In this document: one piece after another, positions 3,754 through 6,602 of the stretch | How the letters are laid out: each line of letters begins with the position of its first letter | How positions within the stretch are numbered: the first letter of the stretch is position 1 | Source: an uncultured Treponema sp. | GTDB taxonomy: Bacteria; Spirochaetota; Spirochaetia; Treponematales; Treponemataceae | Assembly (NCBI GenBank): GCA_946615905.1 | Contig: CAMOIE010000017.1 | Coordinates: 1 to 64,000 of the forward strand | DNA: 64,000 nt | Direction: 5' to 3' | Notes under the pieces: generated by a model | The model's input: only the letters and a program-made list of their open reading frames with translations | Databases searched by the model: none | Told to the model about the DNA's origin: nothing | Translations under genes and position numbers: made by a program

Positions 3754-4245
3754 ATGACTACACCCGACTTGCTCTTGTGTCTGGCTGCGGCAATTTTAAT
3801 GTTTTCGGGAGTCTTGGGCTGCATAATCCCCGGGCTTCCGGGAACGCCACTTTGCTGGCTCTCACTTTTGGCCGCAAAATTCATAACTTTCTCTCATTTA
3901 AGCTGGAACATCGTCATAATTACGGGAATTGTCTGCGTGATTGTGGAAATTGTGAATAATTTTCTGCCCTCATATTTTTCAAAAATCTCAGGTGGCAGCA
4001 AATTGGGTGGCTGGGGTGCTTTTATCGGAACTTTTGTCGGTTTGCTCACCGGGAATATAGGCGGAATTGTACTAGGTCCTTTTTTCGGAGCCTTGGCAGG
4101 AGAACTGATTCACGACGCAAGCGATTTTAGCCGCGCCGTGAAATCAGCAAGCTATTCATTTTTAGGTTTTATTACCGGCACAGGCCTGAGACTTATAACA
4201 GCCCTCATTTTTTTGGTCGTGCTGGTAAAATCCTTCTTGAGCTAG
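3754..4245 (+). CDS. DUF456 membrane protein
   Basis: Small integral membrane protein of 163 residues with several hydrophobic segments and glycine-rich stretches (GCIIPGLPGTPLCWL, GGSKLGGWGAFIGTFVG, GPFFGALAGEL) typical of the DUF456 family. The function of that family is unknown. The ATG directly abuts the stop of the M48 protease gene, and no separate Shine-Dalgarno sequence is obvious, which suggests translational coupling. Its last four bases overlap the 3' end of the convergent gene at 4242. Confidence 0.8.
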   Translation: MTTPDLLLCLAAAILMFSGVLGCIIPGLPGTPLCWLSLLAAKFITFSHLSWNIVIITGIVCVIVEIVNNFLPSYFSKISGGSKLGGWGAFIGTFVGLLTGNIGGIVLGPFFGALAGELIHDASDFSRAVKSASYSFLGFITGTGLRLITALIFLVVLVKSFLS

Positions 4246-4934
4246 AATCTGAAAACTAGACCGACAACCGGAGCAACGACAATTTCGTTTACCCAGTTGT
4301 GATAGTTGTCAGCGTTAGTCTTTGCAGGGGCATTTGTCGTGTTTGTTTCTTTATTGTATACCCTGTAGTATGTGTGCTGGAAGAAGTCATAAGCTCCGCG
4401 AACTCCACCATACAAAGAGACTGAATCAGAAACTTTAATTTCTGCGTTTACGAAAAGGCCGATACCGAGAGAAAGCTCTGACATCGAGTATCTATTATCA
4501 GAATGCTTGATATCCTTCTGAACCTTTGCGAAGTTAAAGTTAGGTCCAATTCCGACAGGAATCACAAGCTTACTATCGCTGACAAGAACAGTGTAGGCAC
4601 CGAACATTCCGTCAATACCAAACATTCTGTTGTTCCAGTTGTTGTTTATCGTATTCGTAACACCAGATTTTCTTGCATTGTAGGCATAGGGGGAATAAAA
4701 GTTTCCGTCAACAAAGAATCCTATCTTGTTCTGAGCAATCGGAACTCTAAATCCGGCGTTAATGCCCCATGAATTGTAACATTCAACATCGATATTTCTG
4801 TTTGCAGGATTGTAGTTAAAAACCTGCGGAACAGAGACACCTACGTTAAAAGACGCTTTTCCGGCATCTTCAGCGGCAAACATGGCTGTTGCGCCAAAGA
4901 AAGCGGCAATGATAAAAGTCATAATTTTCTTCAT
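4242..4934 (-). CDS. Small outer-membrane beta-barrel candidate
   Basis: A 230-residue exported protein that I do not recognise by family. It has a clear signal peptide (MKKIMTFIIAAFFGATAMFA, cleavage after AMFA). The mature part alternates polar and hydrophobic strands, is rich in Y, N and F, and ends in phenylalanine (VGLVFRF), as expected for an outer-membrane barrel. A Shine-Dalgarno sequence AAAGGAGG lies ahead of the ATG. A ten-G tract occupies the apparent promoter spacer, so expression may be phase-variable. It resembles small OmpW-like barrels in size and layout, but I cannot show homology by eye. Confidence 0.7.
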   Translation of the reverse strand: MKKIMTFIIAAFFGATAMFAAEDAGKASFNVGVSVPQVFNYNPANRNIDVECYNSWGINAGFRVPIAQNKIGFFVDGNFYSPYAYNARKSGVTNTINNNWNNRMFGIDGMFGAYTVLVSDSKLVIPVGIGPNFNFAKVQKDIKHSDNRYSMSELSLGIGLFVNAEIKVSDSVSLYGGVRGAYDFFQHTYYRVYNKETNTTNAPAKTNADNYHNWVNEIVVAPVVGLVFRF

Positions 4935-4966
4935 AAGAAAACCTCCTTTGTGACTATATGGGAGAG

Positions 4967-4995
4967 TTTTTACCCCCCCCCCGCTTTTAAGTTAA
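4967..4995 (-). promoter_or_regulatory. Promoter with G10 homopolymer spacer
   Basis: On the minus strand TTAACT (-35-like, overlapping the lysS stop) is followed by TAAAAGC plus ten G, a spacer of 17, then TAAAAA (-10-like). The G-tract is at 4973-4982 on the plus strand as C10. Slippage of the tract would change the spacer length. A second possible -10, TATAGT, lies further downstream and would place the G-tract at its -35. Confidence 0.55.
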
Positions 4996-6602
4996 TATAC
5001 AGAAAGAATTTTCTGTAGTTTTTCCTCTCCAATTATTCTCATAAAGGAAGCAAGGCGCGGACCTTGATCCTTATTAATAAGAACATGGTACAAAGTTGTG
5101 AACAGAGATTTTGGCTCCAGTCCGATTTCCTTTGCGATGTCGTAGATTTTCTGCTGAAGTTCCTTGTCCAGGGCGATGTTTTTCATCTCTGGAACGACTT
5201 CATCGCGGACTTTAACGACAGCCTTTGTCTCTTCCATTGAAAGCTCTGCCTTAGAGCCGTCCTCACGGAGGGCAAAGCGGAATTCCTCAGGTGCGCATTC
5301 CTTTACCCAGTACCAAGCGCAGGCACAGCGGCGGCGGAAGCATTCTTCCTGCTCCGGTTTGATGTCTCCGAGAGCTTTGATTACCAAATCTACATCCCCG
5401 GAATATGTCTGCAACAATGTTGTCAGCTGGCGGAAGGCAATCGCATATGGGCGGACTTTTGGCATTCCTGGTTCAATCTGGGCAAGCTCGTAAACGCGCT
5501 TTTCCTTGAGGTAGAGGTCGTCAGACTTTGCCTTTTCCTCCCCCCAAGCGATTCTCTCAACACGGTCATAAGCCTCGTACATGGTGATAACGTCAATGTC
5601 GAATGAGATTGCAAACTCGTGGTCAGGCTTGTTGCTTGCGAAAATCCAGCGCAGGACTTCCGGCTGATAGACTGCCAACGCATCGGGAAGGGCAATGACC
5701 TTTCCCTTTGAGGATGACATTTTTCCTGGCAAGCCCTTGAGTCCTACAAAGTCGTATTTCATTGTAATCGGGGCGTCCCATCCATAGACTTTTTTTGAGA
5801 CCAGTTTCGCGGTGTCGTAAGAGCCGCCCGGCGAGATATGGTCTTTTCCACCCGGTTCAAAGACGACTTTTTCTTCATTCCATCTCATCGGCCAGTCAAC
5901 GCGCCAGCCGAGTTTGATATTGCCGCAGTTTCTGAGGTCAACTTTTTCCTCGTTGCCGCAACTTTCGCACTTGTATGTGACTCCGTAGTCACCATCGTAG
6001 TCGAGGATTTCTGTAGTGTCCTTGTTGCATTTTGAGCAGAAGGCGGCAATAGGCCAGTAAACGTCAGAATCCTTCATTTTATGCTCATCGTCGCGGTAGC
6101 AGTTAAGGCACCATTTAATCAACTCCCGGTTCTGCAGGGCTTTTTTCATTCCCTCTGCATAGCGGTTTGCGCGGTAGCGGCTGGCCTGATACAAAAATTC
6201 AGGGTGGATTCCCATGCGGGGAAGCTCCTGCTCGATGTCAACTTCGTGGTGGCGGGCGTAGTTGTCGTCACGGTTGAATGTATCGGGAACCATTGTAATC
6301 GGGAAGCGGAGGTATTTTTCCAAAACTTCGGGTTTGGGCATGTTTGCCGGGACTTTGCGGAAAACGTCGTAGTCGTCCCATGAATAGATAAAGCGGACTT
6401 TCTTGCCCCTGTCCCGCAATGCGCGTGCAACAAGGTCGACAGTCATGATTTCGCGGAAATTTCCGATGTGGACTGTTCCTGAAGGAGTAATACCGGAAGC
6501 ACAGGTATAAAGGGGCAAATCACCCTTTTCCTTGATGATTCTGGCTGCCATCTGGTCGGCCCAGTGGCACAGTTCTTTTGATTCTAAATCTTGAGTACTC
6601 AT
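4992..6602 (-). CDS. lysS: Lysyl-tRNA synthetase, class I
   Basis: Charges tRNA-Lys with lysine. This is the class I form found in archaea and spirochaetes, unrelated to the class II enzyme of most bacteria. The class I signatures are visible: the HIGH-like motif in TPSGTVHIGN and the KMSKS-like motif in KMSSSKGK. Two CxxC pairs between about 165 and 230 (CLNC, CSKC, CESC) suggest zinc binding. Length (536) is normal. No Shine-Dalgarno sequence precedes the ATG, and the promoter lies only 8 bases upstream, so the message is probably leaderless. Confidence 0.97.
   Translation of the reverse strand: MSTQDLESKELCHWADQMAARIIKEKGDLPLYTCASGITPSGTVHIGNFREIMTVDLVARALRDRGKKVRFIYSWDDYDVFRKVPANMPKPEVLEKYLRFPITMVPDTFNRDDNYARHHEVDIEQELPRMGIHPEFLYQASRYRANRYAEGMKKALQNRELIKWCLNCYRDDEHKMKDSDVYWPIAAFCSKCNKDTTEILDYDGDYGVTYKCESCGNEEKVDLRNCGNIKLGWRVDWPMRWNEEKVVFEPGGKDHISPGGSYDTAKLVSKKVYGWDAPITMKYDFVGLKGLPGKMSSSKGKVIALPDALAVYQPEVLRWIFASNKPDHEFAISFDIDVITMYEAYDRVERIAWGEEKAKSDDLYLKEKRVYELAQIEPGMPKVRPYAIAFRQLTTLLQTYSGDVDLVIKALGDIKPEQEECFRRRCACAWYWVKECAPEEFRFALREDGSKAELSMEETKAVVKVRDEVVPEMKNIALDKELQQKIYDIAKEIGLEPKSLFTTLYHVLINKDQGPRLASFMRIIGEEKLQKILSVY

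Follow-up and report, generated by a model that had tools for sequence, protein, structure and literature searches.

The window, by which we mean the whole stretch of 64,000 nucleotides from an uncultured Treponema sp. analyzed here, contains on its minus strand a class I lysyl-tRNA synthetase gene (lysS) and, downstream of it on the same strand, a gene for a predicted small outer-membrane protein (hereafter the OMP gene), with a gap of 57 bp between the two. This gap harbors a tract of ten guanines: the plus strand reads CCCCCCCCCC at 4973-4982, i.e. G10 on the coding strand, and the order along the minus strand is TGTATATTAACTTAAAAGC-G10-TAAAAACTCTCCCATATAGTCACAAAGGAGGTTTTCTT-ATG. The features of the locus, the two genes being taken from their ORFs and the remainder read directly from the DNA, are as follows:

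4992..6602, minus strand: upstream lysS gene, class I lysyl-tRNA synthetase (Pfam tRNA-synt_1f, E = 3.7e-124)
4990..4995, minus strand: candidate -35 element TTAACT, matching TTGACA at 4/6 positions
4989-4973, minus strand: 17-base spacer, TAAAAGC+G10
4973..4982, minus strand: homopolymeric G10, at which slippage is proposed to occur
4967..4972, minus strand: candidate -10 element TAAAAA, immediately 3' of the tract, matching TATAAT at 4/6 positions
4953..4958, minus strand: alternative -10 element TATAGT, matching TATAAT at 5/6 positions
4942..4947, minus strand: Shine-Dalgarno sequence AGGAGG
4242..4934, minus strand: OMP gene, 230 codons, for a predicted small outer-membrane beta-barrel, with its ATG at 4934

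An earlier note on this DNA had reported the ten guanines of the coding strand and a distance of exactly 17 bases between TTAACT and TAAAAA, and both readings are correct. It passed over the overlap between TTAACT and the stop codon of lysS (TAA, 4994-4992). The candidate -10 element lies 32 nt from the ATG of the OMP gene and does not have the T at position 6 that belongs to the TANNNT layout found across the genus (see below). No clear terminator was found between lysS and the OMP gene, the nearest hairpin (5066-5051) lying inside the end of lysS; hence, readthrough from lysS could mask any switch operating at this locus.

Taken on its own the locus makes a weak case for a promoter. The G10 is the only run of eight or more guanines within the 64-kb window; 11 of 100 dinucleotide shuffles of the same 64 kb gave at least as many G8 matches, and the count in the window alone is not extreme. 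On a larger scale, G7-8 runs are strongly depleted in 464 kb of the same genome (2 observed vs ~23 expected) while those of G9 and longer are not (3 observed vs ~1.3 expected), which indicates that the long G tracts form a separate population; 14 of them, including that of the window, are present in the 2.96-Mb genome. The tract is framed by hexamers that each match consensus at four positions. Of the 12 G9+ tracts in this genome that run directly into TA, 5 are preceded by a -35-like match of at least 4/6, as against 3.5 expected from shuffled upstream DNA; we accordingly attach no significance to the match of TTAACT to the -35 consensus, which is no better than AT-rich upstream DNA yields by chance. 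A consensus promoter scan likewise called no promoter at the locus. The hexamer pair by itself is not better than chance.

The OMP displays a signal-peptide-like N-terminus and a C-terminus of the form ...VGLVFRF, with phenylalanine as the last residue. Searches against Pfam recovered no family at E-values up to 1, OmpW included; the protein is not detectably OmpW-like, and its apparent relatives are TDE1717-type and Opa-type barrels. The NCBIfam model outer_TDE1717 (NF049866) matched the protein with 21.9 bits (E = 1.4e-4), under its curated cut-off of 135 bits, which is reached by none of the 118 genomes of the genus. Likewise, a profile derived from nine homologues of the OMP matched Neisseria Opa60 (E = 0.006) over one stretch of 60 residues, and simple strand counting yielded eight alternating strands, above the level of shuffled sequences. 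A single-sequence AlphaFold model was unusable (pLDDT 32). Together, these features of the sequence suggest that the protein is a small, probably 8-stranded outer-membrane barrel of the TDE1717/Opa-like type. The signal-peptide-like start, the terminal phenylalanine, the eight strands and the Opa60 and TDE1717 matches are also those to be expected of a surface-exposed product.

Homologues of the OMP were recovered in 17 of 200 genomes, its own included, and only the window's copy is preceded by a G run. The 16 homologues in other species show at most 39% identity to it; lysS adjoins none of the six that were checked, and they apparently possess promoters of their own. Given that these 16 lack the tract, the putative switch would be a recent, gene-independent addition, or else the OMP gene would have been recruited to it.

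To place the locus in context we searched 118 genomes of the genus Treponema with the pattern TTGACA-N4..12-G8-TANNNT, and recovered 135 sites in 48 species. The reversed pattern, run as a control on the same 118 genomes, gave no sites, and replacement of poly-G by poly-C gave one. The tracts are mostly G8-G10 and typically stand directly before the -10 element, which takes forms such as TAAAAT, TATAAT, TATTAT and TAATAT. The downstream genes code mostly for lipoproteins and small barrels. By a heuristic for export that is crude but was applied as an identical rule to both sets, signal-peptide-like starts were seen in 79/86 downstream genes, as opposed to 100/251 control genes from 400 kb of the window's own genome (Fisher p ~1e-18), and lipobox-like motifs in 48/86 as opposed to 20/251 (Fisher p ~1e-18). 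In most of these promoters the -10 element lies 28-37 nt from the start codon, a range into which the 32 nt of the window falls. Among 73 proteins encoded downstream, five match the TDE1717 family, one of these being the window's OMP, and others match OMP_b-brl; conversely, exact TTGACA-G9/10-TANNNT promoters occur, in other species, at 3 of the 30 TDE1717-family loci examined. The window locus thus resembles this set in the position of its tract, in the distance from the -10 element to the ATG and in the exported nature of the products, including TDE1717-type barrels; it differs in its hexamers, TTAACT and TAAAAA, the other sites having consensus -35 elements.

Across 393 genomes of the phylum the same architecture proved frequent in two families of the class, the window's own and f13 (genus g50), and is absent from most of the distant families. 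Among the matches listed in named genomes it also occurs in gut Clostridia, Bacilli, Alphaproteobacteria, Coriobacteria and others, which indicates that it is convergent or general rather than a treponemal invention. In genus g50 (G396, G446, G473 and others) the promoters often read TACC-G9-TAG, so that the tract is flanked by an imperfect inverted repeat, as exemplified by TTGACAAATTGCTACC-G9-TAGTCT.

Promoters recognized as orthologous by the conservation of their flanks and of the genes behind them have tracts of unequal length: G11/G9 (L325/L353), G10/G11 (L349/L351), G8/G10 (L295/L354), G13/G9 (L357/L358) and G11/G8 (L362/L363). These are differences between species, as distinct from switching at the level of populations. 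The spacers of the poly-G promoters of the genus number 34 at 15-16, 13 at 17 and 71 at 18-19, compared with a peak at 17 for the ordinary promoters of the window's genome. The scarcity of poly-G promoters with a spacer of 17 might mean that the assembled states are mostly off-optimum; lineage structure could cause the same dip, and for this reason we do not use it as evidence.

Among the remaining long tracts of the window's own genome, one (G000:C4:172471-172501, L008) lies in a near-ideal promoter, TTGACA-19(G12)-TAAAAT, 67 nt upstream of a start codon, and is a cleaner poly-G promoter than that of the window. The protein encoded downstream, which starts MKAIFIVAPGKVEIRD..., we take to be zinc-dehydrogenase-like. 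Five further G9-G10 tracts (G000:C25:1390, 19812, 21790, 26219 and 28778; L020, L021, L023, L025 and L026) fall within ~27 kb of a surface-glycan cluster coding for an O-antigen ligase, a DegT aminotransferase, CTP transferases, a formyl transferase and a PIG-L deacetylase. They are situated mostly within ORFs or at their ends, and the assembled length of L023 breaks the frame. A G9 near an ORF start (G000:C2:69495, L007) is in a state that looks OFF as assembled: the frame from the ATG stops after 17 codons, and would be open for ~207 codons at G8 or G11. In another genome (G110; L093, L098, L103, L104 and L106) G9-G10 tracts lie inside the signal-peptide codons of lipoprotein-like genes.

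A second regularity concerns the bases that follow the tracts. TA stands directly after 54% of the 1244 G9+ tracts of the 118 genomes of the genus, and after 12/14 in the window's genome, as compared with 4-7% of G4-G6 runs; one species alone has 66 G9+ tracts, of which 83% are then followed by TA. In sampled genomes from other families of the class, T follows most of the tracts among the matches listed. TA also comes after long tracts within ORFs and on non-coding strands; because the regularity holds for ORF-internal tracts, it is not explained by -10 elements, and we rejected the TA that follows a tract as proof of one. It is conceivable, if improbable, that the tracts are generated or preserved by some process that depends on the sequence itself, such as a context favored by slippage or repair, or a protein recognizing GGGGTA; this process would supply promoter and coding switches alike in place of independent selection for each gene.

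Poly-G tracts of this kind have known precedents. In T. pallidum the OmpW homologue tp0126, with its poly-G between the -35 and -10 elements, is reported to have an optimal hexamer spacing of 17, and 76% of 17 other poly-G tracts examined vary in length (PMC7864442). The poly-G length upstream of tprE/G/J and tprL of the same organism modulates transcription of outer-membrane protein genes, with ~8 or fewer guanines being permissive (PMC7864442). Further afield, porA of Neisseria meningitidis has a poly-G spacer with an optimum spacing of 17, and the meningococcal opc promoter carries a poly-C at its -35 position (PMC7864442). Homopolymeric tracts have also been treated as a general regulatory device in earlier literature (PMC2831843), and tract counts have been tabulated for several treponemes, among which T. 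ruminis, a rumen species, has few (PMC8049484).

Within the same family as the window, a T. pallidum-like genome of 1.1 Mb (G196:C1, ~148.35 kb) shows TCGACA-18(G9)-TAGAAT before a 223-aa OMP_b-brl gene, and a second gene in it is preceded by TCGACA-19(G9)-TAGAAT. From its layout and its protein, among other things, the former gene is probably tp0126, and the parallel with T. pallidum drawn in the earlier note is a good one. The window shares with tp0126 a small outer-membrane barrel and a G9/G10 tract that abuts the -10 element, at a spacing of 17 as against 18 in the T. pallidum-like genome; it differs in its weaker hexamers and in a protein that is not detectably OmpW. With the tpr genes it shares the combination of poly-G and an outer-membrane protein gene, whereas our reading of the window is of a spacer effect centered on 17. 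The likeness to porA, a G tract between the -35 and -10 elements of an outer-membrane protein gene, is convergent, as both lineage and protein are unrelated. The poly-G contingency genes of Campylobacter and Helicobacter also have G8-G12 tracts and concern surface structures, as do the glycan-gene tracts of the window's own genome; those contingency genes are mostly switched translationally within ORFs, whereas the tract of the window is intergenic.

We therefore favor, with moderate confidence and mainly on comparative grounds, the reading that the G10 is part of a phase-variable promoter of the OMP gene. Situated at the -10 end of the spacer, the tract would be altered by one or two bases through slipped-strand mispairing, giving a distance between the -35 and -10 elements of 15 at G8, 16 at G9, 17 at G10, 18 at G11 and 19 at G12. 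Transcription would be highest near a spacing of 17, and the assembled state, with its spacing of 17 at G10, is thereby predicted to be ON; individual cells would differ stochastically in whether they make the surface barrel. We infer that the window's copy slips, that TTAACT and TAAAAA are the elements used and that expression tracks the length of the spacer as reported for tp0126. The proposal of the earlier note, a slippage-controlled promoter for an outer-membrane protein gene, is strengthened by the genus-wide architecture with its clean controls, the exported genes, the distance from the -10 element to the ATG and the differences in length between orthologs, and is weakened by hexamers at the level of chance.

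The reading that competes best with the phase-variable promoter, one that we regard as unlikely, is that the tract varies with minor effect: the OMP would be made mainly by readthrough from lysS, leaving the G10 in a transcribed leader or as a near-neutral remnant. The weak hexamers, the failure of the consensus scan to call a promoter, the 57-bp same-strand gap without a convincing terminator and the fact that homologues manage without a tract all speak for it. Yet long tracts are maintained in a genome in which G7-8 runs are depleted, tract and start codon are spaced as in bona fide poly-G promoters, and the homologues checked in other species have no lysS neighbor and apparently use their own promoters. 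Less probable still is a different geometry, in which the tract overlaps the -35 position of TATAGT (4958-4953), as the poly-C does at opc (PMC7864442), or alters DNA shape or the site of an upstream regulator. TATAGT is indeed a better match to TATAAT than TAAAAA is, and a 17-bp spacing from it puts the -35 element in the G run; however, tracts of the genus typically sit directly before the -10 element, and transcripts from TATAGT would begin at the Shine-Dalgarno sequence with a leader of only ~11-12 nt, which makes this hexamer a less likely -10 element.

Very improbable, in our estimate, is a translational switch, whereby G8 or G11 would join a TTG-started frame, beginning 16 codons upstream of the tract, to the OMP and yield an extended protein of ~262 aa. 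Frame analysis does show a continuous frame at these two lengths, and other tracts of this genome act inside ORFs; nevertheless, chance alone would leave the frame open at every third tract length, the non-ATG start has no good Shine-Dalgarno sequence, and the OMP has its own ATG, its AGGAGG and a normal signal peptide. Least credible of all is an artefact of homopolymer sequencing or assembly: a draft of 47 contigs leaves the exact length of a homopolymer uncertain, but such tracts are also found in genomes of the genus assembled as a single contig, for example G066, and in a T. denticola-sized genome, and their placement is specific to strand and context, unlike that of artefacts.

With the phase-variable promoter as the preferred reading, the window locus is apparently a further case of a known type of poly-G promoter, and the set found across the genus, in commensal treponemes, is larger and apparently undescribed; in the literature searched we found no description of it. 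The genus-wide set is the more interesting result of the two. The extension to a commensal treponeme suggested in the earlier note is understated in its framing around a single locus, as promoters of this type are present in several copies in many species of the genus. Poly-G phase variation of Treponema surface proteins has been discussed as a means of immune evasion by T. pallidum, an organism that is hard to manipulate. If the proposed switching holds for dozens of surface lipoprotein and barrel genes in treponemes of the gut and rumen, stochastic variation of the surface would be a general trait of the group, the switch could be studied in harmless species, and variation relevant to phages, competitors and mucosal immunity would become testable from existing metagenome reads.
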